NCBI GenBank assembly: GCA_021647205.1
Contig: JAKIVD010000008.1
Location: 62,001-126,000 of the forward strand
Direction: 5' to 3'
DNA from: Bacteroidales bacterium
GTDB lineage: Bacteria; Bacteroidota; Bacteroidia; Bacteroidales; F082
DNA length: 64,000 nucleotides
Shown here: piece by piece, positions 7,906 to 58,306 of the stretch
Layout of the letters: every line of letters starts with the position of its first letter
How positions within the stretch are numbered: the stretch's first letter is position 1
Program-made: the position numbers and the translations under genes
The notes under the pieces: model-generated
Database searches by the model: none
Told to the model about the DNA's origin: nothing
The model's input: the letters and a program-made list of their open reading frames with translations, nothing else

Positions 7906-9447
7906 ATGATCACAATTTCTGAAGAAAACATACGGCTCGAAGATTATTTTAACATCCTTTTTAAAGGTGAAGGGTTAAGCATTTCAGCACGCTCAATTTC
8001 CCGTGTTGAAGAGTCGTTTCGTTTTCTGAAAAGTTTCTCGGTTGACAAAATCATCTACGGGGTAAACACCGGCCTTGGCCCGATGGCGCAATACCGAGTT
8101 GAAGCTGATGACCAGGTTCAATTGCAACTCAACCTTATCCGCAGCCATGCCGCGGGAAGTGGCCGGGCGCTGCCACCGCTTTATGTGAAAGCAACAATGA
8201 TTTCGCGACTGAAAAGCTTGTCGTTGGCCTACTCCGGCATCCACCCCGATGCCCTTACCTTAATTGCCCGTTTGATTAATGAAGATATCTTTCCCTTCAT
8301 ACCCGAACATGGGGGTGTGGGTGCCAGCGGCGACCTTGTCCAGCTGGCACACCTGGCTTTGGTATTAATTGGTGAAGGCGAAGTCTTTTTTAATTCGGAA
8401 AGGCTGCCCACTTCAACAGTGTTTAACAGCCTGGGCATTGAGCCGCTGAAGATATATTTGCGCGAAGGCCTCGGACTCATCAACGGGACTTCGGCCATGA
8501 CGGGAATCGGGATTGTGAATACAATTTACGCAAAAAAACTCATCAACTGGTCGGTGATGGCCTCTGCCATGATCAACGAAATAGTGCGCTCTTTCGACGA
8601 CCATTTTTCCATCGAGCTCAATTCAACCAAAAAACACCGCGGACAACAAAAGGTTGCAGCAGCTATGCGGCTCGCCCTTTCGGACAGCAAGCTGATCGAA
8701 AAACGGGACGACCACCTTTACAACGGAAAAACCGGGGAAAAGGTTTTTAAACAGAAAATACAGGAATACTATTCGTTGCGCTGTGTCCCACAAGTACTGG
8801 GACCTGTTTGCGACAGCATTTATGCAACGGAACAGGTGTTGGTCGATGAGGTCAATTCGGCAAACGACAACCCGATTGTTGACATGAAAAACCGGACTGT
8901 TTATCATGGTGGCAACTTCCACGGCGATTATGTTTCGTTCGAAATGGACAAATTGAAGATTGCCGTTACCAAGCTTTCGATGTTGGCCGAGCGGCAACTG
9001 AACTTTCTAATGAACAACAAACTCAACGAAATATTGCCGCCATTTGTCAACCTTGGCACTTTGGGGCTTAACCTGGGCTTACAGGGGACCCAGTTTGCGG
9101 CCACTTCCACTGTGGCCGAAAACCAAACCCTGTCGAACCCCATGTACATCCACAGCATCCCCAACAACAACGACAACCAGGATATTGTGAGCATGGGGAC
9201 CAATGCTGCCTTGTTGTCAAAAAAGGTGATTGAGAACACCTTCCAGGTACTTGCCGTTGAGTTTCTGGCCATTATCCAGTCTGTAGATTACCTTGAAGTC
9301 AGCAACAAGCTGGCCGGGAGAACACGAAAGGTTTACGGTCAGCTTAGGGAAATTGTCCCGGTCTTCACAGCAGACAAGCCAAAATATGCGGAGTTGGAGA
9401 AAATAACAGCGCACCTTTTGGCTTTTAACCCGGAAATTATTGAGTAA
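7906..9447 (+). CDS. Aromatic amino-acid ammonia-lyase, probably tyrosine ammonia-lyase (flexirubin/aryl-polyene type)
   Basis: 513 residues from the ATG at 7906 (the frame also has TTG at 7897). It belongs to the HAL/PAL/TAL family that deaminates an aromatic amino acid with the self-made MIO group. The Ala140-Ser141-Gly142 triad that forms MIO sits in GGVGASGDLVQL. The family tyrosine loop is present as YGVNTGLGPMAQYR, and the NSANDNPI and NNNDNQD motifs are intact. The substrate-selectivity pair reads Ser-His (RSHAAG). That pair is typical of histidine lyases, but I recall the flexirubin-linked Flavobacterium johnsoniae TAL having the same pair and closely similar sequence throughout. No hutU/hutI/hutG genes are near, and fabG, a ketosynthase and an ACP follow, so coumarate production for a polyene starter is the favoured role. 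Histidine deamination is the alternative. Confidence 0.8.
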   Translation: MITISEENIRLEDYFNILFKGEGLSISARSISRVEESFRFLKSFSVDKIIYGVNTGLGPMAQYRVEADDQVQLQLNLIRSHAAGSGRALPPLYVKATMISRLKSLSLAYSGIHPDALTLIARLINEDIFPFIPEHGGVGASGDLVQLAHLALVLIGEGEVFFNSERLPTSTVFNSLGIEPLKIYLREGLGLINGTSAMTGIGIVNTIYAKKLINWSVMASAMINEIVRSFDDHFSIELNSTKKHRGQQKVAAAMRLALSDSKLIEKRDDHLYNGKTGEKVFKQKIQEYYSLRCVPQVLGPVCDSIYATEQVLVDEVNSANDNPIVDMKNRTVYHGGNFHGDYVSFEMDKLKIAVTKLSMLAERQLNFLMNNKLNEILPPFVNLGTLGLNLGLQGTQFAATSTVAENQTLSNPMYIHSIPNNNDNQDIVSMGTNAALLSKKVIENTFQVLAVEFLAIIQSVDYLEVSNKLAGRTRKVYGQLREIVPVFTADKPKYAELEKITAHLLAFNPEIIE

Positions 9448-9465
9448 GACATCGAATAAAAATTA

Positions 9466-10209
9466 ATGCCGTTAGAAAAGATGAAATATGCACTCATTAC
9501 AGGAGGATCAGGAGGCATTGGAAGTGCCATCTGCATAAAACTGGCCCGGATGGGTTACAAAGTCCTTGTTCATTACCACAGCAACAAATCGGCGGCTGAA
9601 GAAGTCCTTGAAAACATCAGAAATGCAAAGGGGGACGGCGAGATCATTGGATTTGACGTAACGGATTTCGATGCGGTCAAACAGGCACTCACTACCTGGA
9701 AATCCAATCACGGACAGGACTACATTGCCGTACTGGTCAACAATGCCGGCACAACGCGGGATGCCCTCATGTTTTGGATGGAAAAAGAAGACTGGTCCCA
9801 GGTCATCGACACCAACCTGAACAGTTTTTTTTACGTAACCTCCCAATTGGTAAAAGACATGGTCATTCAGAAATTCGGGCGCATTGTCAATGTGGTTTCC
9901 CTGTCGGGACAAAAAGGTTTGCCGGGGCAAAGCAATTATGCCGCTGCCAAAGCGGGTGTGGTCGGCGCCACCAAATCGCTGGCCCAGGAAGTGGGCCGTA
10001 AAAACGTAACTGTCAATGCTGTCTCACCCGGCTACATCCAAACCGAAATGACCAAAGACCTTGACGAGAAACACCTCAGTCGGATGATTCCCGCCAATCG
10101 TTTCGGCACACCCGAAGAAGTCGCTGCGGTTGTCGGCTTCCTCGCTTCAGAAGAGGCCTCTTACGTAACCGGCGAAGTCATCAAGGTGAATGGTGGGCTT
10201 TATACCTAA
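9466..10209 (+). CDS. fabG: 3-oxoacyl-ACP reductase (FabG-like SDR)
   Basis: 247 residues from ATG 9466; a second in-frame ATG at 9481 (MKYALITGG) is equally possible. Short-chain dehydrogenase with the NAD(P) glycine motif TGGSGGIG near the N-terminus, the NNAG motif, and catalytic Tyr158 and Lys162 in SNYAAAKAG, preceded by the catalytic Ser in VVSLSG. It closes PGYIQTEMT and ends in VNGGLYT as FabG proteins do. It reduces the 3-keto group of an ACP-bound chain with NADPH. It starts 18 nt after the ammonia-lyase stop, so the two are co-transcribed. In this context it is the dedicated ketoreductase of the polyene chain and probably not the housekeeping fabG. Confidence 0.85.
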   Translation: MPLEKMKYALITGGSGGIGSAICIKLARMGYKVLVHYHSNKSAAEEVLENIRNAKGDGEIIGFDVTDFDAVKQALTTWKSNHGQDYIAVLVNNAGTTRDALMFWMEKEDWSQVIDTNLNSFFYVTSQLVKDMVIQKFGRIVNVVSLSGQKGLPGQSNYAAAKAGVVGATKSLAQEVGRKNVTVNAVSPGYIQTEMTKDLDEKHLSRMIPANRFGTPEEVAAVVGFLASEEASYVTGEVIKVNGGLYT

Positions 10210-10257
10210 GGCCAAAAGGGCATTCTGAATCCTAATTCACCAAACAGATAAATCTTC

Positions 10258-10265
10258 TATTTTTG
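10258..10265 (+). promoter_or_regulatory. Bacteroidota -7 box (TATTTTTG) for the ketosynthase gene
   Basis: Perfect TAnnTTTG element 38 nt upstream of the ATG at 10304; suggests an internal promoter in the cluster. Confidence 0.45.
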
Positions 10266-10303
10266 CACATTTGATGCAAATTTCAAAACCGTAACTTAAT
10301 TCA

Positions 10304-11527
10304 ATGAACAGGGTTGTCATTACCGGAATGGGTATTTATTCCACTATCGGAAAAAACCTGGAAGAGGTCAGGGATTCTCTTTATCATGGAAAATCGGGAA
10401 TTGTACTTGATCCCTACCGGAAAGAACTGCAATTCCGCTCGGGACTGACCGGTGCAATTGAAAGGCCAGTGCTAAAAGGTGTTTTGCCAAGAAGAATGCG
10501 TGTGGGCTTGCCCGAACAGGGAGAGTACGCCTACCTGGCCACCATGGAAGCCTTGCATCAGGCAAAAATGGATGAAGATTTCCTGACAGCGCATGAGGTA
10601 GGCATTCTTTACGGCAACGATAGTTCGGCTGTTCCCGTGGTTGAGGCCACCGATATTATTCGTGAAAAACAAGGCACTATGCGCATTGGTTCGGGCTCTA
10701 TTTTCCAGTCGATGAACTCAACCGTCACCATGAACCTCTCGGTGATATTAAAATTAAAAGGCATCAATTTTACGGTGAGCGCTGCTTGTGCCAGTGGCTC
10801 ACATTCTATCGGAATGGGTTATATCCTCATCAAACAGGGTATGCAGGATGCAATCATTTGTGGCGGGGCACAGGAAATTAATGCCTTATCCATGGGGAGT
10901 TTCGATGCGCTGAATGCTTTCTCCGTCCGGGAAGATGCGCCCCAAAAAGCATCCCGCCCTTTTGACAGGGACCGCGACGGGCTTGTTCCGAGTGGGGGCG
11001 CAGCAACGATTGTCCTGGAAAATTACGAGACCGCCATCCGAAGGGGTGCCCCAATTTTTGGCGAAGTGCTCGGCTACGGTTTCTCATCAAATGGCGAACA
11101 TATTTCCGTGCCCAATGTTGACGGCCCCAAACGTTCACTGGAAATGGCCCTTAAAGATGCCCGGGTACAGGCCACGGAGATTGATTACCTGAATGCGCAC
11201 GCTACATCAACACCTGTGGGGGACACGAACGAGGCACAAGCCATTTTTACCGTATTTAACCAGGGAAGGGTGCCCGTGAGCTCAACAAAATCGATGACCG
11301 GCCACGAAATGTGGATGGGCGGGACCAGCGAAGTGATATACTCCCTCATCATGGCCCACAATTCGTTCATCGCACCCAACATTAACTTTGAAAACCCTGA
11401 TGAACATTCTAAAAAACTAAATATTATCAGCAAAACAACTGAGCAGAAGATTCACACTTTTCTTTCCAACTCCTTTGGTTTCGGCGGCACGAATTCAACC
11501 CTGATCATCAGGAAACTCAAACGTTGA
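10304..11527 (+). CDS. Beta-ketoacyl-ACP synthase (FabF/KS-II-like)
   Basis: 407 residues, ATG at 10304 (MNRVVITGMG). Thiolase-fold condensing enzyme with the full KS-II triad: Cys162 in SAACASGSH, His299 in NAHATSTPVGD and His334 in SMTGHEMW, with the conserved Lys five residues before the last His. FGFGGTN near the C-terminus is the usual KS-II glycine loop. It extends an acyl-ACP by two carbons using malonyl-ACP. It is the only ketosynthase in the cluster; APE/flexirubin loci usually carry several, often with a chain-length-factor partner lacking the Cys. Placed between fabG and the ACP gene, it should be the polyene-elongating KS. Confidence 0.85.
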   Translation: MNRVVITGMGIYSTIGKNLEEVRDSLYHGKSGIVLDPYRKELQFRSGLTGAIERPVLKGVLPRRMRVGLPEQGEYAYLATMEALHQAKMDEDFLTAHEVGILYGNDSSAVPVVEATDIIREKQGTMRIGSGSIFQSMNSTVTMNLSVILKLKGINFTVSAACASGSHSIGMGYILIKQGMQDAIICGGAQEINALSMGSFDALNAFSVREDAPQKASRPFDRDRDGLVPSGGAATIVLENYETAIRRGAPIFGEVLGYGFSSNGEHISVPNVDGPKRSLEMALKDARVQATEIDYLNAHATSTPVGDTNEAQAIFTVFNQGRVPVSSTKSMTGHEMWMGGTSEVIYSLIMAHNSFIAPNINFENPDEHSKKLNIISKTTEQKIHTFLSNSFGFGGTNSTLIIRKLKR

Positions 11528-11613
11528 TCACAAGCTTTTGTTCTCAAAAGAATCACTGTAATGAACACATCCCGTTTATTCGATATATTGGTTTTTTCAA
11601 TCAATAAATGTGT

Positions 11614-11621
11614 TAATTTTG
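11614..11621 (+). promoter_or_regulatory. Bacteroidota -7 box (TAATTTTG) for the ACP gene
   Basis: TAnnTTTG match 27 nt upstream of the ATG at 11649, in an AT-rich 121-nt gap after the ketosynthase gene. Confidence 0.45.
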
Positions 11622-11648
11622 CAACTTGTTAATTCTGAATTTACGTAA

Positions 11649-11894
11649 ATGAACAAAGATATTGTTGTAGAAAAAGTCAATGATTTTTTAATTGACGAAT
11701 TCGAACTGGAGCAGGAACAACTGGTTCCCGATGCGTTAATGAAAGATGACCTGGATATCGAAAGCCTTGATTTTGTTGACATCGCGGTAATTATCGAGAA
11801 AGAGTTCGGGCTGAAAGTTACCAGTGAGCAAATGATCAAAATCAGAAAACTGGACGACCTGTACAACTTTATTTTAGAGTACTCCAAAAACTAA
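11649..11894 (+). CDS. Acyl carrier protein
   Basis: 81 residues, acidic, four-helix ACP pattern. The phosphopantetheine attachment Ser39 lies in DIESLDFVD, matching the ACP (D/E)SL motif, and helix II continues as IAVIIEKEFGLK. It carries the growing acyl or aryl-polyene chain as a thioester. The stop codon shares a base with the next ATG (TAATG), so it is translationally coupled to the acyltransferase. It is a specialised carrier and not the genome's main acpP, judged from context. Confidence 0.85.
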   Translation: MNKDIVVEKVNDFLIDEFELEQEQLVPDALMKDDLDIESLDFVDIAVIIEKEFGLKVTSEQMIKIRKLDDLYNFILEYSKN

Positions 11895-12805
11895 TGTCTT
11901 CGTGGAAAGGTAAAACCAGGGGCACCCTTGCCGGATACCGGTTTTTCGTTTTTATACTCAGGTATCCCGGGTTAAATTTTGCCTATTTTTTTCTCAGGTT
12001 CGTCGTGCTGTATTTTGTGCTTTTCGCCCCCAAAGCACGAAAACCTATGCTTTTCTATTTCAGGAACATCCATCATTTCAGCTACTTCAAATCCGTCGTT
12101 TTTCTTTTTAGGAATTTCTATCTTTTAGGCCAGGTACTGCTCGACAAAGTGGCGCTGCTGGCCGGCTTCAGCAACCAATTCACTTTCGATTTCGAAGGGG
12201 AATCACATATTCGTGATATGGCTGCCCGTTCAGGCGGGTTGCTGATTGGCGCCCACATGGGCAACTGGGAAATTGCCGGGCAATTGCTGGAGCGCATCGA
12301 AGCACCGGTCCATATTGTAATGGTTGAAGCAGAACACGAAAAAATAAAAGCCCTGCTCGACTCCACAATGGTGAAAAAGCAGATGAACATCATCGTTATC
12401 AGGGACGATTTTTCCCACATCTTTAAAATTAAAGAAGCCCTGCAACGCAACGAACTGGTTGCTATTCATGGCGACCGCTTTTTGCCCGGCAGCAAAACCA
12501 TGCGCTGTCAATTCCTTGGAAAGGATGCCGAATTCCCCACCGGGCCCTTTTACCTCGCTGTAAAATATGCCAAAGCCGTGTCTTTTGTTTCGGCTGTGAA
12601 GAAGACGAAAACACACTATCATTTTTTTGCCACACCGCCCAGGCTTTACAAAGCCGGAAACAACCCGAAATCGAAGGGGCAGCAAAGCGGGAAAATGCTC
12701 CTGGACTATGTGGCACAACTGGAAACTACCGTAAGGGCACATCCGGAGCAGTGGTTTAATTATTACTACTTTTGGGGTGAGCAAGAAACAGCAGAAAGGG
12801 GCTGA
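11894..12805 (+). CDS. LpxL/HtrB-like lipid acyltransferase
   Basis: 303 residues, beginning at the ATG that overlaps the ACP stop by 1 nt. Lysophospholipid-acyltransferase superfamily, lipid A acyltransferase branch: hydrophobic N-terminal segment (residues about 12-45) and the HX4E catalytic motif His121-Glu126 in GAHMGNWE, followed by HGDRFLPG about 80 residues later as the second conserved block. In lipid A synthesis these enzymes transfer an acyl chain from ACP to a lipid acceptor. Directly coupled to the ACP, it likely moves the polyene chain to a membrane lipid or glycerol-type acceptor. Substrate is inferred from context only. Confidence 0.8.
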   Translation: MSSWKGKTRGTLAGYRFFVFILRYPGLNFAYFFLRFVVLYFVLFAPKARKPMLFYFRNIHHFSYFKSVVFLFRNFYLLGQVLLDKVALLAGFSNQFTFDFEGESHIRDMAARSGGLLIGAHMGNWEIAGQLLERIEAPVHIVMVEAEHEKIKALLDSTMVKKQMNIIVIRDDFSHIFKIKEALQRNELVAIHGDRFLPGSKTMRCQFLGKDAEFPTGPFYLAVKYAKAVSFVSAVKKTKTHYHFFATPPRLYKAGNNPKSKGQQSGKMLLDYVAQLETTVRAHPEQWFNYYYFWGEQETAERG

Positions 12806-12881
12806 GAAATTATCAGGCTTTCCGGCCCCTGAACCCCGATCATTAAGGCTTGAGAGCACAGGATTAGAACCAGAAACCAAA

Positions 12882-13964
12882 ATGAAAAAAAGTATCGGAT
12901 CAGATAAAAAACCGGCTTTACAGGCCAAATTTGACGCGCAGAAAATCGCTTTTGCCCCCATCATGTTCCAGGCTGCCATGGCCCTGCGCGATCTCGGCAT
13001 CCTCGAGTACCTGATGAAAAACAGGCGAAAAGGGGCAACTATCGAAGAGACTTCCCGGGCTTTGGAGCTTTCCGTTTATGGGGTCAAGGTACTGCTGGAA
13101 GCGGGTTTGAGCCTGGAAATGGTACTGTTGGAAGACGGCAGGTTTTCGCTCACCAAGACGGGATATTTTATTTTAAGCGATGAGTTGACACGGGTCAATA
13201 TGGATTTTACGCAGGACGTGAATTACCTCGGCATGTTCAAATTACAGGACGCCATCAAAAACGGAAAACCTGAAGGCCTGAAAGTTTTTGGCAATTGGGA
13301 CACCGTTTATGAAGCCCTCGCAGAACTGCCGGCCAAAGTGAGGAAAAGCTGGTTTGCATTCGACCATTTTTATTCTGATTATGCTTTCCCCGAAGTCATG
13401 CCTTTTCTCTTTAGCGATAAACCGGAAACAATTCTCGATGTGGGCGGGAACACGGGGAAGTTTTCCATTTTTTGTGCCAGGCACAATGAAACCGTGAAAA
13501 TAACGATCCTGGACTTACCCGGTCAGGTAAAAGATGCCCTGAAAAACATTCGTGAAGAAGGGCTGGAAGACCGCATCTCAACGCACGCCCTCAACCTGCT
13601 TGACAACGCCATTCCTTTTCCGAAAAGTCACGACGCAATATGGATGAGCCAGTTTCTTGACTGCTTTTCACAGGACGAAATCCGGGGCCTGCTAAAACGT
13701 GCTTTCCATGCCCTGGATGAAAAAGGTTCGCTTTTTATACTGGAAACCTATTGGGACAAACAGGAATTCGAGGCATCTACCTACAGCCTGCACGCCACCT
13801 CCTTGTATTTTACGGCCATCGCCAACGGCAACAGCCAGATGTACCATTCAGACGACATGGTAAGACTGCTTGATCAATCCGGCTTTTATGTGGAAACCGT
13901 TTACGAAAACATCGGCGTAAGCCACACCTTGTTCAAGTGCAAAAGAAAAAATCAGCGGAACTGA
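12882..13964 (+). CDS. SAM-dependent methyltransferase (O-methyltransferase family 2-like)
   Basis: 360 residues from the ATG at 12882. The frame is open from a GTG at 12777 inside the preceding gene, but the extra 35 residues look low-complexity and the ATG is preferred. The N-terminal third is a winged-helix dimerisation domain (MALRDLGILEYL, LEDGRFSLTKTGYFIL), and the SAM-binding motif DVGGNTGKF starts at Asp186, followed by the acidic residue in ILDLPGQ. This is the layout of plant and bacterial small-molecule O-methyltransferases. In the cluster it probably methylates the aryl head group. C-methylation cannot be excluded from sequence. Confidence 0.75.
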   Translation: MKKSIGSDKKPALQAKFDAQKIAFAPIMFQAAMALRDLGILEYLMKNRRKGATIEETSRALELSVYGVKVLLEAGLSLEMVLLEDGRFSLTKTGYFILSDELTRVNMDFTQDVNYLGMFKLQDAIKNGKPEGLKVFGNWDTVYEALAELPAKVRKSWFAFDHFYSDYAFPEVMPFLFSDKPETILDVGGNTGKFSIFCARHNETVKITILDLPGQVKDALKNIREEGLEDRISTHALNLLDNAIPFPKSHDAIWMSQFLDCFSQDEIRGLLKRAFHALDEKGSLFILETYWDKQEFEASTYSLHATSLYFTAIANGNSQMYHSDDMVRLLDQSGFYVETVYENIGVSHTLFKCKRKNQRN

Positions 13965-13975
13965 AAACCAATTAA

Positions 13976-14740
13976 ATGTCGAAATTCCACGTACTGAATA
14001 TCGCCGGTATATTTTTGCTCCTCGTTATTTTTAGCGCCGGGCTTCCCTATTTATGGATTCTTCTTCTTGCCCTGCTTTATCTCGGCGGGCTTGTCGTCGG
14101 GGTGTTTTACATTCAGTTCGATTTCTTCCTGAAATCTTTAAACAAAGGGCAGACCGGAAAAAAGCAGATTGCCCTTACTTTTGATGACGGGCCCGAGGCT
14201 GAAACCACACCGAAAGTTATCGGCATATTGGCGAAACACCGGTTCAAGGCAACATTTTTCTGTGTTGGAAAAAAAGCGGAAAAACACCCTGATTTATTGA
14301 AGAAAATGGATGAGGCAGGCCACCTTGTTGCGAACCACAGCTATTCCCATTCGGTTCTTTTTGGCCTGTTCTCTTCAAAAAGAATGCTTAAAGAACTGAA
14401 ACTGACAACACGGCTTATTGAAAAGAATATCGGGAAGAAACCCAAATTATTCCGTCCGCCTTTTGGCGTAACCAACCCCACCCTTGCAAAAGTGTTGAGG
14501 GAAACACGCCTTATTTCCATTGGCTGGAGCCGGCGTTCACTCGATACGGTCAGCAGCACCGAAAAGGTGATCCGGAAACTTGAGAAGAAACTGGGCGCGG
14601 GGGATGTGGTGTTGTTTCACGACAAGCTCAGTAGCACACCTCAGATGCTCGAAGTTTTTCTTCCCTGGTTGCATGAAAATCATTTTGAAGTGGTTGGCCT
14701 GGATGAACTCTTAAAAATTGAACCCTATGAAAAAACATAG
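13976..14740 (+). CDS. Polysaccharide deacetylase-like (NodB homology, CE4) membrane protein
   Basis: 254 residues, ATG at 13976, 11 nt after the methyltransferase stop. Two hydrophobic segments in the first 45 residues anchor it in the membrane; the NodB domain follows with all CE4 motifs: TFDDGP (Asp70, Asp71), metal-binding His121 and His125 in NHSYSH, RPPFG, and the terminal LFHD. The family removes N- or O-acetyl groups from sugars using a divalent metal. Seen next to a glycosyltransferase in the same run, so deacetylation of a sugar or acyl decoration on the product is possible; this is inference. Confidence 0.8.
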   Translation: MSKFHVLNIAGIFLLLVIFSAGLPYLWILLLALLYLGGLVVGVFYIQFDFFLKSLNKGQTGKKQIALTFDDGPEAETTPKVIGILAKHRFKATFFCVGKKAEKHPDLLKKMDEAGHLVANHSYSHSVLFGLFSSKRMLKELKLTTRLIEKNIGKKPKLFRPPFGVTNPTLAKVLRETRLISIGWSRRSLDTVSSTEKVIRKLEKKLGAGDVVLFHDKLSSTPQMLEVFLPWLHENHFEVVGLDELLKIEPYEKT

Positions 14741-15371
14741 AATTTTTGTATTTTTATTTTGCCTCACAAGCGCCTTGACAGCGCAACAAGCAGGCAGTTT
14801 TACACGGGTACAGGATGCGGAAACCCTCAAAACGGAAATCAAAGATGTTTCGGAAAACACAAGTAGCATCCAGAGCGATTTCATCCAGGAAAAACACCTG
14901 ACCATGCTCAAAGAAGTCCTTATCAGCAATGGACGGTTTTTGTTCCGCAAAGAAAACGATGTGCGCTGGGAATATTTGTCACCCATCGATTATACCATCG
15001 TTATTTACAATGGTAAATTTACCATCCGGGACGGAAAAAAAATCAATGAATTTGATATCAGCTCCAATGCATTGTTTCAGCAAATCAACAAAATGATTGT
15101 TACGGCCATTCGTGGCGACTTTGTGGACAATCCCGAATTTGAGTCCTCCTTCTTTGCCAGTAACAAACAGTACCTTGTCAGGTTGAAGTCCGTAAACGAA
15201 CAGGTGGCCGAAATGCTGACGGGGATAGAAATCTATTTTAACCGTGAAACGCTGGCCGTTGAAGAGGTGAAATTTGTCGAGCCCGGCGAAGATTACACCC
15301 TTATTGTCTTTAAAAACCGGAAGCTGAATATTGAACTAACCGACAAACAATTTGAACTGAATGATGATTAA
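14727..15371 (+). CDS. LolA-like outer-membrane lipid/lipoprotein carrier
   Basis: 214 residues from the ATG at 14727, overlapping the deacetylase end by 14 nt; a TTG at 14718 is less likely. A signal peptide (MKKHRIFVFLFCLTSALTAQ) is followed by a LolA-type half-barrel: SIQSDFIQEKHLTML, then GRFLFRKENDVRWEYLSP, a region very like the LolA FxQ...G...pg...W.Y..P pattern. LolA carries acylated cargo through the periplasm. Aryl-polyene loci commonly hold such a LolA-like gene, thought to move the lipid toward the outer membrane. Here it is translationally coupled to both neighbours. Confidence 0.75.
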   Translation: MKKHRIFVFLFCLTSALTAQQAGSFTRVQDAETLKTEIKDVSENTSSIQSDFIQEKHLTMLKEVLISNGRFLFRKENDVRWEYLSPIDYTIVIYNGKFTIRDGKKINEFDISSNALFQQINKMIVTAIRGDFVDNPEFESSFFASNKQYLVRLKSVNEQVAEMLTGIEIYFNRETLAVEEVKFVEPGEDYTLIVFKNRKLNIELTDKQFELNDD

Positions 15372-15996
15372 AACAAATAACAGGTTGATAAAACCCATAT
15401 TGCTTGTTTACCTGTTGGCGATGGCATTTTCGGCCACTGCCCAGCCAGAAGGCATCAAGTTGTCGCAACCCTGGGTTTTCAGCAACAGTTTCACGAAGGC
15501 CCTTTACAAAGCGGAGCTGACAGCTTACGGCAACGACCTCAGCGGTTTGCTGTTTGTCAAACGGACAGGGGACGGTTTCCGGTTTATCTTCCTTTCAGAA
15601 ATCGGCCTGAAGTATTTTGATGTTGAAATAAACAGGAACAGGCAGGAATCCTACATCGTCCATTCCATGATGACCGCGCTGAAGCGCCAAGCCTTGTTGA
15701 CATTCTTTGAGACAACTTTCAGGATGCTGACGATGAGCTGGGGGGAACACAGGGAAAAATACAGTTTTGTCTGCGAAGGTTCGGGAAACAGGGTGCAGGT
15801 CATCAAAAGCAAAGAACACGGCAAGTTCCGTTTTGATTACCACCCGAATTTTGGTCAGGTGAGCCTGCTGTGGCATTATGGTGTATTCATCAAGAAGCTG
15901 ACCATCGAACCATCGGGTTATGATTACAAGTCGCCGCAGCTGATAGTAGCCGGACAAAAGAAAATTCAATTCCGCCTGGAACAAATCGAACAATAG
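15361..15996 (+). CDS. Secreted hypothetical protein of the pigment-lipid cluster
   Basis: 211 residues, starting at one of two adjacent ATGs (15361 or 15364) and overlapping the LolA-like stop by 11 nt. Signal peptide up to SATAQPEG (about residue 28). The mature part is beta-rich (GLLFVKRTGDGFRFIFLSEIG, YSFVCEGSGNRVQVIKS) with no motif I recognise. Tight coupling to the LolA-like gene suggests a periplasmic or outer-membrane partner, possibly a receptor analogous to LolB, but it has no lipobox cysteine. Function not known. Confidence 0.6.
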   Translation: MMIKTNNRLIKPILLVYLLAMAFSATAQPEGIKLSQPWVFSNSFTKALYKAELTAYGNDLSGLLFVKRTGDGFRFIFLSEIGLKYFDVEINRNRQESYIVHSMMTALKRQALLTFFETTFRMLTMSWGEHREKYSFVCEGSGNRVQVIKSKEHGKFRFDYHPNFGQVSLLWHYGVFIKKLTIEPSGYDYKSPQLIVAGQKKIQFRLEQIEQ

Positions 15997-16019
15997 GATG
16001 CCCCCCTTGCTGCAAGTGT

Positions 16020-16077
16020 CCACGCTTGGAGTATACTTTTTCATGAATCAGGAATGACCGGTTATTGTCAAGCGTGG
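16020..16077. repeat. Inverted repeat inside the cluster's intergenic gap
   Basis: CCACGCTTG at 16020-16028 is matched by its exact reverse complement CAAGCGTGG at 16069-16077, separated by 40 nt, in the 180-nt gap before the glycosyltransferase. No T-run follows. It could be a processing or regulatory hairpin, or chance. Confidence 0.4.
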
Positions 16078-16146
16078 GAGCTTCCAAGGCAGAAGCGGAT
16101 ACATGAAACAAAGCGAACTTTCCCAGAACACAAAACCCAAAAAGAT

Positions 16147-16154
16147 TAACTTTG
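16147..16154 (+). promoter_or_regulatory. Bacteroidota -7 box (TAACTTTG) for the glycosyltransferase gene
   Basis: TAnnTTTG match 22 nt upstream of the ATG at 16177. Confidence 0.45.
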
Positions 16155-16176
16155 CCCCTTTGTGAAAACCGCTTGA

Positions 16177-17409
16177 ATGAGTGAAGCCCCTTACGATAAA
16201 AGTATCTTTTCCGCGCAAAGGATCTGCGTTATTGTGCCCACTTTCAACAACGGCAAAACCATCACCGCTGTCATTCATGGCATTCAACAGTACACCGGCA
16301 ACATCATTGTGGTGAACGATGGTTCCACCGATGACACTTTACAGGTTCTGGCAAAGATGAAAGGGCTTGAAGTTGTTGGCTACGAAAAGAATGCCGGCAA
16401 GGGGTTCGCCATCCGCACCGGCTTTAAACATGCCCTTGAAAGAGGTTTCGACTACGCCATTACCATTGACTCCGACGGGCAGCATTTTCCTGATGACTTA
16501 CCTGTTTTTATCGAAAAACTGAAGACAGCTCCCAAGGCCGTCATTGTTGGTTCGCGGAATATCCAAACCGAAGGGATGCCTGCCAAAAATACCTTTGCCA
16601 ACAAATTTTCCAATTTCTGGTTTTGGGCCGAAACGGGATTGCGGCTGCCCGACACCCAGTCCGGTTTTCGGTTGTACCCCATAAAAGAGTACAGGAACAG
16701 CCGTTTCTACACCCGGAAATATGAATTTGAGGTTGAGGTGCTTGTCCGTTCTGCCTGGAGCAGCATCGATATTGTCCCCATCCCCGTCAGGGTTTACTAC
16801 CCCCCCGAAGGAGAACGCGTCAGCCACTTTCGGCCACTGCCCGATTTTGGCCGGATAAGTATCCTGAACACCGTACTCGTCCTCCTAACTTTTCTTTACA
16901 TTTTACCGCTGAAGGCCATAAAATACCTCGTCAACAACAAACTTACGGATGTGGTGAAGGAGCAGCTTGGCAAGCACAACGAAAACCCCTTCAAGATTGC
17001 ATCGGCGCTGGGTTTTGGGGTTTTCATGGGCATCGTTCCCATTTGGGGGTTTCAAATGCTGGCAGCCGCTTTCCTTGCCCATTTCCTCCGCCTCAACAAG
17101 GTGCTGGTGCTGCTTGCCTCCAACATCAGCATCCCGCCCATGATCCCCTTCATTATTTACTTCAGCTACAAAACCGGCGGACTGTTCGTGAACAACCCGC
17201 AAACATTTAATGCCGATACGCTTGCCCACCTCAAAGAGAAGGTAATGACCGGGCATTTTTATGATACACTGAACGAGTTTGGTTACAGCATTATCCAGTA
17301 CGTGCTTGGCAGTCTCGTATTTGGTTTTGTTCTCGGACTGTGCGTTTGGTTGATTTCTTGTTTAATTTTGAAAATTGCCGGGCTGATGAAAAAGGAACGG
17401 TTTGTTTAA
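16177..17409 (+). CDS. Family 2 glycosyltransferase with C-terminal DUF2062 membrane domain
   Basis: 410 residues. GT-A fold glycosyltransferase in residues about 10-230: IVPTFNNGKT, NDGSTDDT and the DxD-type IDSDGQH (nucleotide-sugar and metal binding). The C-terminal part (about 265-400) is a DUF2062 module with several membrane helices, starting NPFKIASALGFGVFMG and containing GIVPIWGFQ and ISIPPMIP. The family adds a sugar to a lipid or polyprenyl carrier. In this run it may glycosylate the aryl-lipid or prepare its acceptor. The same fusion is common in Bacteroidota pigment-lipid loci as far as I recall. Confidence 0.8.
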   Translation: MSEAPYDKSIFSAQRICVIVPTFNNGKTITAVIHGIQQYTGNIIVVNDGSTDDTLQVLAKMKGLEVVGYEKNAGKGFAIRTGFKHALERGFDYAITIDSDGQHFPDDLPVFIEKLKTAPKAVIVGSRNIQTEGMPAKNTFANKFSNFWFWAETGLRLPDTQSGFRLYPIKEYRNSRFYTRKYEFEVEVLVRSAWSSIDIVPIPVRVYYPPEGERVSHFRPLPDFGRISILNTVLVLLTFLYILPLKAIKYLVNNKLTDVVKEQLGKHNENPFKIASALGFGVFMGIVPIWGFQMLAAAFLAHFLRLNKVLVLLASNISIPPMIPFIIYFSYKTGGLFVNNPQTFNADTLAHLKEKVMTGHFYDTLNEFGYSIIQYVLGSLVFGFVLGLCVWLISCLILKIAGLMKKERFV

Positions 17410-17566
17410 ACCTTCAACCTCAAAGCAATGTTATTTTTCAAAAATAAATATCGTGCCGAGTCCATCCGGTTGAAGAACAGGGATTACGAATGGCATGCGA
17501 ATTAGTAAATACGTCAACAACAACCCCAAATAATTGGGTTGATGATACATTTCATTGACAAAACCG

Positions 17567-20500
17567 ATGGGCAACATATTTTTATACCTGTTCCGTTTAT
17601 TTGAAAAACACAAGATGGCCCTGGTGATTTTGGTCATCACCATTTTGGCGGTCAGCGGCTATTATACTGCCCAATTAAAATTGTCGGAGGACATTACCAA
17701 AGTACTGCCCGACAATACGCAAATCAATCAAATGAGTTTCGTTTACAGTAATTCGAAATTCCTTGACAAAGTAGTTTTCAACATCAGGCTGAAAGACAGT
17801 GCCGCAACGGCAAACCCCGGTCTTCTCGTTGATTTTGCCAACCGTTTCAGCGATTCGCTGGTTGCAGAACACTTCCCCCGGGGCATCCGCTCCATCGACA
17901 AAGCCCCGGGCGAAAGTGCTCTGCTGGACACTTACACCCTGTTGTACGATTACCTTCCGCTTTTCTTAAACGAAGCCGATTACGCCCGGATTGATACGCT
18001 GATTGCCCCGGAACAAATAGGAAAAACGCTGCAGTCGGATTACAAAACACTTATTTCGCCGGCAGGTTTTGCCACCAAAAAGATGATTAAAAAAGACCCC
18101 TTGCACCTGACGCAACTGGCACTCGAAAAGCTCAAATCTTTCGGGATGAGCGACAATTTTGAGCTCTACCAAAATCACTTTCTCTCCAAAGACCACCGCA
18201 ACCTGCTGCTCATTGTTTCGCCGGCCCACACCAACAACACAGCCGTCAACAGTCAACTTTTTGAAGGCATCGACCAACTTATTGCCCAATTGACCACCGG
18301 TGATTTTAGCAAGATTCAGGTCGAATATTTCGGAAATGCCGTGGTGGCGCTGGGGAATGCACAGCGCATTAAAAAAGACATCCTTATTACCGTAAGCCTG
18401 GCCATGCTCCTGCTGATTGTTTTCATCAGCGTATTTTTCAAAAGAAAGCGGGCTTTCTTCCTTGTTTTTCTGCCCGTACTTTTTGGGGCACTGGTGGCAC
18501 TGGCCGTACTTTTCCTTGTACAGGGCGAAGTCTCCGCCATCTCGTTGGGTATTGGTTCGATATTGCTGGGCATTTCGGTGGACTATGCGCTGCACGTATT
18601 TTCGCATTACCGCGAGCACAACAATATCCGCCTGTTGCTCAAGGATATTTCAACCCCGGTGATACTGAGCAGCCTCACGACCGCAGCTGCTTTTTTGAGT
18701 TTGCACTTTATCAATTCGCAGGCGCTGAACGACCTCGGATTGTTTGCTGCTGTGAGTGTGCTCAGTGCAGCACTCTTTTCGCTGCTTGTATTACCGCATC
18801 TGCTGAAAAGCAAGAAACCTAAAGAACCGCTCCACAAGAAAGGCTGGATCGACAGGCTGGCCAATATTCATTTTGAAAAAAGCAAGTGGGTAAAAGCCGC
18901 TATCCTTTTGCTCACCCTGTTGTTTTTCTTTCTCGCACAACAAGTGCAGTTTGATGCGGATATGATGAAAAACAGTTATATGAGCGATGAATTGAAGAAA
19001 GCCGAGCAAAACCTGAATGCGGTAACAAATTTGTCCAAAAAGACCATTTATCTTGTCACACCCGGTAAAACCCTTGACGAAGCACTCGGCAAGAATGAAA
19101 TTGCCCGACAGATAATTGACAGCCTGACGGCCATCGGGCTGATAAAAAATGCCACAGTGGTCAACCGGCTGCTGCAATCAAAGGCCAGTCAGGAAAAAGC
19201 CTTTGGGCGATGGAAAGATTTTTGGGAGAAAAGAAGGCTGCCAACAATTAATGCTACCAAAGAAAAGGGAAGTGAGCTGGGGTTTAAGGCCACTGCTTTT
19301 ACCCGGTTCTACGATTTACTGAACAAGGATTTCTCGACACTTGCACCCGGACAGGCAAACCCGCTCAGCAGCATGTTGTTGGACAACTACCTGATTGATA
19401 CCGACAGCCTTGATGCAGTTATCAATGTAGTGAAGGTGGACAGCAGGACGGAAGACATCGAACGGGTTTATGCTGCATTCGGCAAACAGGAGGATACCTG
19501 GGTAATTGACAAACGGCTTGTTACGAGCGAATTTATGCGCATTCTTAACGACAATTTCAACAAGTTGATATTGGTTTCCCTTTCGCTTGTTTTCCTGATC
19601 TTACTGCTGGCCTATGGCCGTATCGAATTGACCATCCTCACCATGCTCCCGGTTGTTATCAGTTGGATTTGGACTGTGGGGATCATGGGTTTGTTTGGGA
19701 TATCCTTCAATATTTTCAATGTCATCATCCTTACTTTTATTTTCGGGCTGGGCATCGACTACAGCATATTCGTCATGCGCGGACTGCTGCAGAATTACAA
19801 ATACGGAAGTGGTAATTTCTCCACCTACAAAGTTTCCGTCCTGTTGTCGGGCATCACCACTTTGCTGGGGATTGGCGTGCTGATTTTCGCCAAGCACCCG
19901 GCCTTGCGGTCCATCGCCACCATGTCCATCATCGGGATACTGACCGTGATTTTTATTACTTTTTCGCTGCTGCCACCTGTTTTTAAATGGATGGTCAGCT
20001 ATAAAAAAGGGATGCGCAACAGGCCGGTAACCCTGCTTGACTTTTTCTTCTCCATCGCCGCCCTGCTGGTTTTCATGGGAGGCGCCGTATTTATGACCCT
20101 GCTTTCTTTTGTGATGCGCATGCTTCCCGGCAACGGTAAAAAGAAAAAACTGTTCTTCCACACAGTCTTCAGCAAACTGACCTGGTTTCTGATTTATATG
20201 AATTTCCTGTCAAAAAAAACCATCATCAACCCCAGTGGCGAAGATTACAGCAAACCGGCCATCATCATTGCCAACCACCAGTCGCACATTGATTTGATGC
20301 TGATGATGCTGCTCAATCCGCGGGTTGTAATCCTGACCAACGACCGCAATTACAACAACCCCGTTTACGGTCCGGCCTTGCGGTACGCCGGTTTTATCCC
20401 TTCGGATGAGGGTTTTGAAAACATAGTGAATGACGTGCGAAAAAAGGTAAAGGATGGTTATTCCCTCGTGATTTACCCCGAAGGCCACCGCAACGACACG

Positions 20501-21409
20501 GGCAGGATAAAACGCTTTCACAAGGGGGCCTTTTACCTGGCACGTCAACTCGGACTGGACATACTTCCCATCATCATCCACGGGCAGAACCAGTTGTTGA
20601 AAAAAAGTGAATTCTTCCTGAAAAGGGGCGCCATCGTAACGAAATTCCTGCCGCGCATCGATTTGTCACGAAATGAATTCGGACAAGACCTGAAAGAAAC
20701 CACCAGGGGCATCCGCAAGTATTTCAGTAACGAATACGATAAGGTGCGTGAGCAATACGAAACGCCGGAATATTTCAGGGATTTTATTTTGAAAAATTAT
20801 CTGTACAAAGGGCCGGTGCTGGAATGGTACACCAGGATTAAACTGCGCCTCGAAGACAATTACACTTTCTTCAACAACCTCATTCCCAGGCATTGTACCG
20901 TTACCGACCTGGGCTGCGGATACGGCTACCTCGCCTTTGTGCTGAACCTGGTTGCAGAAGACCGGAAAATTACCGGACTTGATTACGACGAAGACAAAAT
21001 TGCCGTTGCCGGCAACTGTGCCATCAGAAGGAGGAATGTCAGTTTTATGGCTGCCGACATCACGCAGGCGGAACCGGACAAAAGCGATGTGTTCATCCTG
21101 CTCGATGTGCTGCATTACCTGCCCGAACCCCTGCAGATTGAGACCATCGAAAAGTGCATCGGGAAACTCAACAAAGGCGGGCTGATCATCATTCGCGATG
21201 CAGACAAAAGCCTTGAAAGAAGGCATAAGGGAACACAGATTACCGAATTCTTTTCTACACGTTCCGGTTTCAATAAAACACGGTACAAACTCGATTTTGT
21301 TGCCCGTTCAATGATTAAAAGAATTGCGGAGAAACACAAATTAAAACTGGAAATTGTTGACAACAGCAAACTGACTTCCAACCTGGTTTACCTGCTGCGG
21401 GCAGATTGA
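17567..21409 (+). CDS. Fused MMPL/RND-type exporter, PlsC-like acyltransferase and methyltransferase
   Basis: 1280 residues from the ATG at 17567 (TTG at 17555 less likely). Residues 1-850 form an MMPL exporter in two repeats, each with an N-terminal TM, a large periplasmic domain and a TM bundle; the repeats end in the paired motifs GISVDYALHVFSHYREH (about 331) and GLGIDYSIFVMRG (about 725). Next comes a PlsC-type acyltransferase with HX4D in NHQSHID (His at about 904) and YPEGHRND. The last 170 residues are a class I SAM methyltransferase with VTDLGCGYGYLAF (about 1110) and ILLDVLHYLPEP. The reading frame is continuous across all three. Likely role: moves the lipid across the inner membrane and completes acylation and methylation. 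The domain calls are strong, the substrate is inferred. Confidence 0.85.
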   Translation: MGNIFLYLFRLFEKHKMALVILVITILAVSGYYTAQLKLSEDITKVLPDNTQINQMSFVYSNSKFLDKVVFNIRLKDSAATANPGLLVDFANRFSDSLVAEHFPRGIRSIDKAPGESALLDTYTLLYDYLPLFLNEADYARIDTLIAPEQIGKTLQSDYKTLISPAGFATKKMIKKDPLHLTQLALEKLKSFGMSDNFELYQNHFLSKDHRNLLLIVSPAHTNNTAVNSQLFEGIDQLIAQLTTGDFSKIQVEYFGNAVVALGNAQRIKKDILITVSLAMLLLIVFISVFFKRKRAFFLVFLPVLFGALVALAVLFLVQGEVSAISLGIGSILLGISVDYALHVFSHYREHNNIRLLLKDISTPVILSSLTTAAAFLSLHFINSQALNDLGLFAAVSVLSAALFSLLVLPHLLKSKKPKEPLHKKGWIDRLANIHFEKSKWVKAAILLLTLLFFFLAQQVQFDADMMKNSYMSDELKKAEQNLNAVTNLSKKTIYLVTPGKTLDEALGKNEIARQIIDSLTAIGLIKNATVVNRLLQSKASQEKAFGRWKDFWEKRRLPTINATKEKGSELGFKATAFTRFYDLLNKDFSTLAPGQANPLSSMLLDNYLIDTDSLDAVINVVKVDSRTEDIERVYAAFGKQEDTWVIDKRLVTSEFMRILNDNFNKLILVSLSLVFLILLLAYGRIELTILTMLPVVISWIWTVGIMGLFGISFNIFNVIILTFIFGLGIDYSIFVMRGLLQNYKYGSGNFSTYKVSVLLSGITTLLGIGVLIFAKHPALRSIATMSIIGILTVIFITFSLLPPVFKWMVSYKKGMRNRPVTLLDFFFSIAALLVFMGGAVFMTLLSFVMRMLPGNGKKKKLFFHTVFSKLTWFLIYMNFLSKKTIINPSGEDYSKPAIIIANHQSHIDLMLMMLLNPRVVILTNDRNYNNPVYGPALRYAGFIPSDEGFENIVNDVRKKVKDGYSLVIYPEGHRNDTGRIKRFHKGAFYLARQLGLDILPIIIHGQNQLLKKSEFFLKRGAIVTKFLPRIDLSRNEFGQDLKETTRGIRKYFSNEYDKVREQYETPEYFRDFILKNYLYKGPVLEWYTRIKLRLEDNYTFFNNLIPRHCTVTDLGCGYGYLAFVLNLVAEDRKITGLDYDEDKIAVAGNCAIRRRNVSFMAADITQAEPDKSDVFILLDVLHYLPEPLQIETIEKCIGKLNKGGLIIIRDADKSLERRHKGTQITEFFSTRSGFNKTRYKLDFVARSMIKRIAEKHKLKLEIVDNSKLTSNLVYLLRAD

Positions 21410-57784: not shown

Positions 57785-58306
57785 ATGGATTTAAGTAAGA
57801 TTTTATCAATCTCCGGAAAGCCGGGATTGTACAAAAAAGTCGGCGAATCGAAGAACGGGTTGATTGTTGAGTCATTTATTGACGGGAAAAAAATTCCTGC
57901 TTTTCCGCATGAGCGAATCAGTTCACTGAAGGAAATCAGTATTTATACTGAAAGCGACGACATTGCCTTGTGGAAGGTGCTCAAAAAACTGCAGGAAGTG
58001 CAGGAAGGCAAGCCCATTGAAAACCCGAAAAAGGCAAGCGCCGATGACCTGAAGGCATTGTTTGAACAAATCATTCCCGATTACGACAAAGATTCGGTTT
58101 ACGCTTCCGACATGAAAAAAGTGTTCAGTTGGTACAACCAGTTGCTGGAGAAAGATATGCTGGATTTTAGCGAACAGGAAGCAGAAGAAAAGGGGATGGA
58201 GGAAGCTGAAGACGGAAGTCAGGAGACGGAAGACGGAAGTCAGGAGACGGAAGACGGGAGTCAGGGGACGGAAGACGGGAGTCAGGGGACGGAAGACGGG
58301 AAGTGA
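57785..58306 (+). CDS. DUF5606 protein with repetitive acidic C-terminal tail
   Basis: 173 residues, ATG at 57785. Residues 1-130 match the DUF5606 family of Bacteroidota (LSKILSISGKPGLYK, IVESFIDGKKIPAFP, FEQIIPDYDKDSVY), function unknown. The last 35 residues are four copies of TEDGSQE/TEDGSQG encoded by a 21-bp direct repeat, in frame to the stop, so the tail length can vary by 7 residues. The domain itself ends about residue 135. Cytosolic. Confidence 0.8.
   Translation: MDLSKILSISGKPGLYKKVGESKNGLIVESFIDGKKIPAFPHERISSLKEISIYTESDDIALWKVLKKLQEVQEGKPIENPKKASADDLKALFEQIIPDYDKDSVYASDMKKVFSWYNQLLEKDMLDFSEQEAEEKGMEEAEDGSQETEDGSQETEDGSQGTEDGSQGTEDGK
58208..58303 (+). repeat. 21-bp minisatellite in the DUF5606 coding sequence
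   Basis: Four consecutive 21-bp units (GAAGACGGAAGTCAGGAGACG and the variant with GGG) at 58208-58228, 58229-58249, 58250-58270 and 58271-58291, plus 12 nt partial. Units 1-2 and 3-4 form two identical pairs differing by A-to-G changes. Length is a multiple of three, so copy number changes keep the frame. Confidence 0.9.

Follow-up and report, generated by a model that had tools for sequence, protein, structure and literature searches.

Can a biosynthetic locus with a single ketosynthase (KS) build its product alone, or is it one part of a larger pathway? The question is raised by eleven genes, all on the forward strand, at positions 7906-21409 of a 64,000-nucleotide stretch of DNA (the window; bases 62001-126000 of contig JAKIVD010000008.1, here C28) from a Bacteroidales bacterium of family F082, whose genome comprises 3.53 Mb in 46 contigs and is 98.5% complete. 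A preliminary description of the window took these genes for a compact locus of aryl-polyene/flexirubin type, organized around one ketosynthase and supplied by an ammonia-lyase. Much of that picture stands: open reading frames (ORFs), Pfam and NCBIfam matches confirm the named genes at their places and strand, with overlaps in the middle, and the flexirubin/aryl-polyene kinship and the ammonia-lyase starter gene are borne out by FlxA, FlxB and LolA2, which exceed the cutoffs of their NCBIfam models. The locus is not self-contained, however: pairs of KS and chain-length factor (CLF), dehydratases, a second acyl carrier protein (ACP2), a thioesterase, the acyl-CoA ligase FlxY and dar genes all lie elsewhere in the same genome. 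Very probably, the window locus supplies starter, tailoring and export functions and is one half of a flexirubin-type pathway that has become dispersed in this genome.

The second half came to light in a ketosynthase search of the same genome, which returned further ketosynthases on contig C7. Between 37.6 and 49.7 kb of that contig (L091 7595-19653) the genes run in the order DarA-like flavodoxin protein, DarB, FabZ-like dehydratase, DarG, DarH, ABC ATPase and permease, 4HBT-type thioesterase, KS2 fusion (682 aa), ACP2 and KS3-CLF fusion (780 aa), with DarB and the DarA-like protein at 37.6-39.7 kb and the two KS fusions and ACP2 at 45-50 kb. FlxY lies nearby at 31.3 kb. DarB (566.5 bits, cutoff 550) and DarH (462.5 bits, cutoff 300) pass their NCBIfam thresholds, as does the thioesterase with TIGR00051 (76.7 bits, cutoff 68.7); DarG reaches 156.2 bits with the DarG family model (cutoff 70) and 163.4 bits with the flexirubin DarG model, below the cutoff of 170 of the latter. 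The KS3-CLF match is the only one in the window's genome at E 1e-60. A contig break does not account for the split, as each locus lies well within a long contig: the window locus occupies about 70-83 kb of C28, which is at least 126 kb long, and the second locus 31-50 kb of the 190-kb C7. Judged by their marker genes, the window and C7 loci are a flexirubin-type pathway. On the window side, flexirubin-specific NCBIfam models match five genes, three over and two under cutoff, and the gene order recurs in relatives; on this evidence the gene set is not due to chance.

The likeness to the flexirubin systems of Chitinophaga pinensis and Flavobacterium johnsoniae, as described for those species, covers the tyrosine ammonia-lyase FlxA, the reductase FlxB, the ligase FlxY, several ketosynthases, dehydratases and thioesterases, as well as LolA, a glycosyltransferase, a polysaccharide deacetylase, an acyltransferase, an exporter and DarA/DarB (PMC3992019). 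FlxA and FlxY of C. pinensis are active in vitro, the former preferring tyrosine over phenylalanine about 1000-fold and the latter making 4-coumaroyl-CoA, while feeding traced a methyl group to methionine and showed that one ring deuterium is lost, consistent with methylation of the ring (PMC3992019); in the present organism these activities are predicted from the genes. The arrangements differ. In F. johnsoniae the whole set occupies one 37-kb cluster, and in C. pinensis the polyene genes stay together (flxA-flxY, Cpin_1853-1877) with only darB/darA apart (Cpin_6850-6851) (PMC3992019). In the present genome it is the polyene set that is divided, its elongation block being placed near the dar genes. 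In the arcuflavin system of Azoarcus sp. BH72 the polyene genes likewise occupy two unlinked loci with dar in a further cluster, although its starter gene is of the chorismatase/XanB2 type and the gene set is cut differently (PMC3949708). Dispersal has precedents in the dar genes of C. pinensis (PMC3992019) and the loci of Azoarcus BH72 (PMC3949708); less expected are the dispersal of this pathway and the fusion of both its KS-CLF pairs.

Aryl polyene (APE) clusters, such as E. coli ape and those of Xenorhabdus, share with the present loci a methyltransferase (44-50% identity between the FlxJ-family protein and those of enterobacterial loci L044-L083), ACPs, LolA, an MMPL protein, an LpxL-like acyltransferase, a family 2 glycosyltransferase (GT2) and probably a KS with a short CLF, which in X. 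doucetiae is 211 residues long (PMC12664062). They differ at the starter: E. coli ape begins from 4-hydroxybenzoate via ApeH (PMC8253772), whereas a tyrosine ammonia-lyase, a PaaK-like FlxY and dar genes are found here. An ape-type locus would combine a hydroxybenzoate starter with a ligase in the cluster and have no ammonia-lyase; the window locus contains FlxA and no ligase.

Gene order in relatives suggests how the two halves came to be separated. Among 40 non-enterobacterial FlxJ loci (L004-L043), 11, including Marinilabiliaceae and a Cytophagales metagenome-assembled genome (MAG), hold an elongation block between FlxJ and CE4, a polysaccharide deacetylase of carbohydrate esterase family 4, in the order FabZ, thioesterase, KS2, C-domain, ACP2, KS3 and CLF (ACP2 is unmatched in L039). 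A contig end falls inside the block in L034, and 16 loci show other arrangements or no neighbor within reach. In the remaining 12, CE4 directly follows FlxJ, as it does in the window, where it begins 11 bases past FlxJ; two of the 12 (L004, L007) belong to the window's genus, as judged by identical coordinates (G001 and G040, G003 and G026). In ten of these 12 genomes KS3-CLF is found, complete or in pieces, on other contigs. The 11 loci with the block inside come from organisms named as members of different orders, which makes a single cluster the probable ancestral state. The export genes also seem to have parted in genera g7 and g15, in five of whose loci (L229-L232, L234) the part of the retrieved stretch beyond FlxJ has neither a CE4 nor a LolA2 match; in L145, LolB2, LolA2 and CE4 adjoin the CLF. 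ACP1 is matched in 31 of the 40 loci and adjoins LpxL in every one of the 31.

The two halves also travel together across the family. In a census of 60 genomes (thresholds E <=1e-100 for FlxA, 1e-30 for FlxY, and 1e-60 for KS3-CLF and DarB), FlxA and FlxY each occur in 33, the genome sets being identical, and neither passes its threshold in the other 27. This is not the pattern of housekeeping genes scattered through relatives, which the preliminary description had named as the finding that would speak against it. KS3-CLF is likewise present in 33 genomes, where any match with E at or below 1e-60 counts as presence and the best match in G022, G031, G057 and G076 is only 42-50% identical: it accompanies FlxA in 31 and stands alone in two (G018, G038), with FlxA alone in two (G059, G063) and neither in 25 (Fisher p 2e-12, relatedness ignored). 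DarB was found in 25 genomes, all with FlxA. FlxA and KS3 share a contig in five of 31 genomes, lying within 10 kb of each other in four (genera g6 and g14) and 61 kb apart on a 921-kb contig in G029; the shared-contig counts are 12/23 for DarB and KS3, 15/25 for FlxY and DarB, and 1/25 for DarB and FlxA. Separate contigs are no proof of distance, because many census genomes are fragmented, and the firm cases of FlxA-KS3 separation are G029 and the window's own genome. The family exemplifies the break-up of a pigment cluster, where cluster-finding tools would see two fragments, a single-KS locus and a dar locus, and could mis-call both.

For the organism of the window we infer every step that goes beyond the sequence, and the following pathway is proposed in that sense. 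FlxA, which carries the Ala-Ser-Gly motif of 4-methylideneimidazole-5-one (MIO) enzymes at residue 140 and is 61% identical to a Flavobacterium aquariorum homologue (L035), would provide the starter by converting tyrosine to 4-coumarate, to be activated by FlxY. The chain would be initiated by KS1 with ACP1 from the window and extended by the KS2/mini-CLF and KS3/CLF pairs with ACP2 from C7, while FlxB would carry out reduction, the FabZ-like dehydratases on C7 would form the double bonds, and FlxJ would methylate the ring. DarB and the DarA-like protein may supply a dialkylresorcinol, and the ester to it is perhaps formed by DarH, a BtrH-related acyltransferase. Attachment of acyl and sugar groups and transport to the outer membrane would fall to the LpxL-like and PlsC acyltransferases, GT2, CE4, MMPL, LolA2 and LolB2; the homologues of LpxL, MMPL, LolA and LolB are consistent with a membrane-bound product, as had been suggested previously. 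In evolutionary terms, an ancestral single cluster would have broken up within the family, with the elongation block leaving the gap between FlxJ and CE4 and now residing beside the dar genes in this genome. A role of the pigment against oxidative stress, as known for aryl polyenes, is conceivable because the genome has three COX1-family matches (contigs C29, C41 and C37) and a search of it for cytochrome bd subunit I gave no match.

Three other explanations can be weighed against this dispersed pathway. KS1 and one ACP might extend a coumaroyl starter once or twice to yield a small aryl lipid independently of C7, and one KS, one ketoreductase and one ACP do occur together with acyltransferases and an exporter. 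Neither an activating ligase nor a dehydratase is found among the genes of the locus by ORFs, Pfam or NCBIfam, however, and the presence of FlxY in exactly the FlxA genomes, the company of KS3-CLF in nearly all of them and the 11 relatives in which the same genes form one cluster around the elongation block all speak against such self-sufficiency. With the remaining genes located by the ketosynthase search and the annotation of C7, this self-contained pathway was rejected as highly improbable. It is likewise scarcely credible that the genes are what is left of a flexirubin cluster in decay and no longer functional: their dispersal, the tandem repeats within the KS2 frame and a lone second dehydratase might suggest as much, but reading frames are open in both the window locus and the C7 block, and the block genes persist at 65-92% identity in two genomes of the same genus. 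An APE-type lipid without dialkylresorcinol, with the dar genes of C7 making a separate compound, is unlikely. The GT2, LpxL and PlsC proteins would suit an anchor of glycerolipid type like that proposed for the E. coli APE (PMC8253772), and in four genomes of the family in which DarB was not seen, FlxA lies within 10 kb of KS-CLF. Against this, the elongation block of the window's genome follows darB-fabZ-darG-darH-ABC transporter, and no DarB genome in the census is without FlxA.

Several observations weigh against the dispersed flexirubin pathway favored here. DarB was not seen in eight of the 33 FlxA genomes, and the four of these that keep FlxA and KS3 together (G022, G031, G057 and G076) are likelier to make an aryl polyene without resorcinol. 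KS3-CLF was not seen in two of the 12 genomes with CE4 directly after FlxJ (L008, L013). In the window, FlxJ and LolB2 remain under their NCBIfam cutoffs (Table 1). On C7, the DarA-like protein (306 aa, directly before DarB) owes its assignment to its position and to weak flavodoxin matches in Pfam and NCBIfam, ACP2 is named by eye and by matches to relatives with no profile basis, and the FabZ-like dehydratase scores 37.3 bits against a FabZ cutoff of 113 and has no Pfam match at E 0.001, while the second dehydratase (a 43% match) is isolated at C7:152290. Moreover, the groupings with ApeR and ApeO described below are only moderately supported.

The ketosynthases may divide the work as in APE synthesis. 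In a tree of 48 rows, which leaves out rows under 29% identity or 251 residues and holds duplicates of the same stretch under two names (L035, L217, L018, L218, L135), KS1 groups with E. coli ApeR (support 88/70) and KS2 with ApeO (85/53), while the CLF rows cluster separately. According to in vitro experiments that PMC8253772 cites, initiation requires ApeR, and ApeC is the chain-length factor acting with ApeO. KS1 is thus probably an initiating ketosynthase of the ApeR type; its Cys-His-His triad comprises Cys 161 (ACASG), His 297 (NAHA) and His 332 (TGHE). KS2 carries a C-terminal domain of about 200 aa, which matches PF00109 in one homologue at E 0.0017, below the cutoff, and has no such match in another. 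The predicted structure of its homologue in L018 (predicted local distance difference test, pLDDT, 88) aligns with the ishigamide CLF 6kxf_B (Z 15.3, root-mean-square deviation 3.3 over 192 residues) and with FabF 4ddo (Z 15.1); CLFs and ordinary ketosynthases tie as fold matches (Z within 1). Foldseek matched the same structure to ApeC (6qsp_B) at E 9.7e-6, and a local profile comparison with 39 ApeC rows gave a probability of 0.1% and no support for ApeC. As the domain has half the length of a KS and adjoins one, it is read as a mini-CLF, although the fold cannot separate CLF from KS.

In the window's genome, KS2 and its mini-CLF form one chain, as do KS3 and its CLF. Fusion of the first pair is rare: the two share a frame in four of 36 scored loci and are separate genes in 32 (six of the 42 loci were unscorable), the fusions being those of the three genomes seen of the window's genus (682, 624 and 649 aa) and that of another MAG (635 aa). 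The second pair is fused in 18 of 37 scored loci. On the KS3 tree, from which five of 42 rows with no CLF seen were dropped, the fusion state changed at least four times, three of the changes being forced by well supported branches; this figure counts gains and losses alike, and rows belonging to a single genus are not independent. The KS2/mini-CLF linker of the window's genome consists of tandem repeats with 24- and 7-base units (L091 16149-16426), and a 24-base minisatellite also precedes the KS2 gene (L091 14384-14506). Among the other three KS2 linkers, two consist of serine/glutamine stretches of repeat-like character, and the third has no clear repeats. The linker is thus repeat-like in three of the four KS2-fusion genomes, as if a minisatellite had joined two neighboring genes. 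The KS3-CLF linker of the window's genome shows no visible repeats.

We advance, tentatively and with less than even confidence, that the flexirubin synthase of the window's genome, and of its genus as far as seen, is partly single-chain, with both elongating ketosynthases fused to CLFs, of which that of KS3 is the longer, and that cluster break-up and the fusion of obligate partners may go together. Fusion may hold a stoichiometry that is no longer guaranteed by one operon. Polyunsaturated fatty acid synthases are known to have KS and CLF on one chain; in the literature searched, no report was met of fused KS-CLF in aryl-polyene or flexirubin synthases or of such a split, which does not prove their absence. 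Natural KS-CLF fusions would be ready-made single-chain constructs for a type II synthase, normally a heterodimer.

Table 1. Genes of the window locus (window coordinates) and the ligase FlxY on contig C7, with the profile matches behind each assignment.
Gene product	Coordinates	Strand	Basis and remarks
FlxA, MIO-type tyrosine ammonia-lyase	7906..9447	+	NCBIfam NF053541 836.1 bits (cutoff 700); Pfam Lyase_aromatic 518 bits
FlxB, SDR ketoreductase	9466..10209	+	NCBIfam NF053542 377.5 bits (cutoff 340)
KS1, FabB-like ketosynthase	10304..11527	+	Pfam PF00109 and PF02801; best solved relatives FabB enzymes
ACP1, acyl carrier protein	11649..11894	+	Pfam PP-binding 30.4 bits (cutoff 20.8)
LpxL-like acyltransferase	11894..12805	+	Pfam PF03279 56 bits (cutoff 22.3)
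FlxJ-family methyltransferase	12882..13964	+	NCBIfam NF053543 511.6 bits (under cutoff 560); longest ORF from GTG 12777
CE4 polysaccharide-deacetylase family protein	13976..14740	+	Pfam PF01522 123.1 bits
LolA2, LolA-like periplasmic carrier	14727..15371	+	NCBIfam NF053544 206.2 bits (cutoff 125); longest ORF from TTG 14718
LolB2, LolB-like protein	15361..15996	+	NCBIfam NF053540 58.5 bits (cutoff 60)
GT2 glycosyltransferase with DUF2062	16177..17409	+	Pfam PF00535 78.9 bits, PF09835 78.1 bits
MMPL exporter, PlsC-type acyltransferase and class I methyltransferase in one 1284-aa chain	17555..21409	+	Pfam
FlxY, acyl-CoA ligase	C7:31272-32558		NCBIfam NF053551 680.7 bits (cutoff 520)

Within the window locus, ACP1 and LpxL overlap at base 11894, CE4 and LolA2 at about 14727-14740, and LolA2 and LolB2 at 15361-15371. 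The FlxJ family model aligns from residue 42 of the longest ORF and most relatives match only from residue 32-43, which makes ATG 12882 the likelier start over GTG 12777. The gene before GT2 had been described as an unknown secreted protein; it is present at those coordinates and is not without likeness, as it nearly reaches the LolB2 cutoff and its predicted structure (pLDDT 87.5) resembles LolB/LolA, with LolB 8cm1 and 1iwm as the best Foldseek matches and Z scores of 13.1 against the LolA-like protein 3bk5 and 10.8 against LolB 1iwm (142 residues, 3.5 Å). Similarly, the gene previously called an MMPL exporter has the MMPL domain and proves to encode a three-domain chain, which begins at TTG 17555 or ATG 17567 and in which Pfam places MMPL (best stretch 203-417), Acyltransferase (899-1008) and Methyltransf_31 (1113-1217). 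The three are also on one chain in L013 (a 1284-aa frame, from 7796) and G022; in G057, a single frame has MMPL and PlsC matches but none to a methyltransferase (loci L224 and L219 compared alongside).

A search with PF00501 for candidate ligases gave eight matches, five of them seen at ORF level only. Three candidates were set aside by eye: L131 is MenE-like and lies beside a MenC-like gene, L132 is a partial AMP-binding ORF, and L126 is a FadD-like ORF. FlxY is outside the eight and was located by protein search, yet it reaches 37.3 bits with PF00501 (cutoff 29.9) when scanned alone; in six genomes with other cluster arrangements the same search placed no ligase. Just before FlxY on C7 (L091 1-1223 and the end of L094) lies a gene for a C45-family autoproteolytic acyltransferase (184.4 bits, cutoff 85). 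Such a gene precedes FlxY in five genomes examined, namely the window's, G022, G026, G029 and that of L143 (loci L218, L224, L227, L143), and is possibly an unrecognized member of the pathway. A protein of about 200-220 aa without Pfam match also recurs beside FlxY or within clusters in several genera (L091 2580-3182; L020 11573-12217; L038, L039, L218, L223, L227).

Contig C22 of the window's genome (L093, C22:146351-149921) encodes two more lyases of aromatic amino acids, about 0.7 kb apart and each with about 33% identity to FlxA; at a guess, one is perhaps a histidine ammonia-lyase and the other its paralogue. In L148, L150, L151 and L152 (genomes G011, G003, G008 and G001), a second KS-CLF pair shares 48-50% identity with KS3; it is accompanied by distant FlxJ-like, DarG-like and DarH-like genes and possibly makes a different aryl or resorcinol lipid. 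Promoter-like sites are at chance level (17 seen, 16.7 expected), terminator-like sites number 31 against 19.1 (sd 4.5) expected, and a 21-base tandem repeat lies in the window at 58208-58304.

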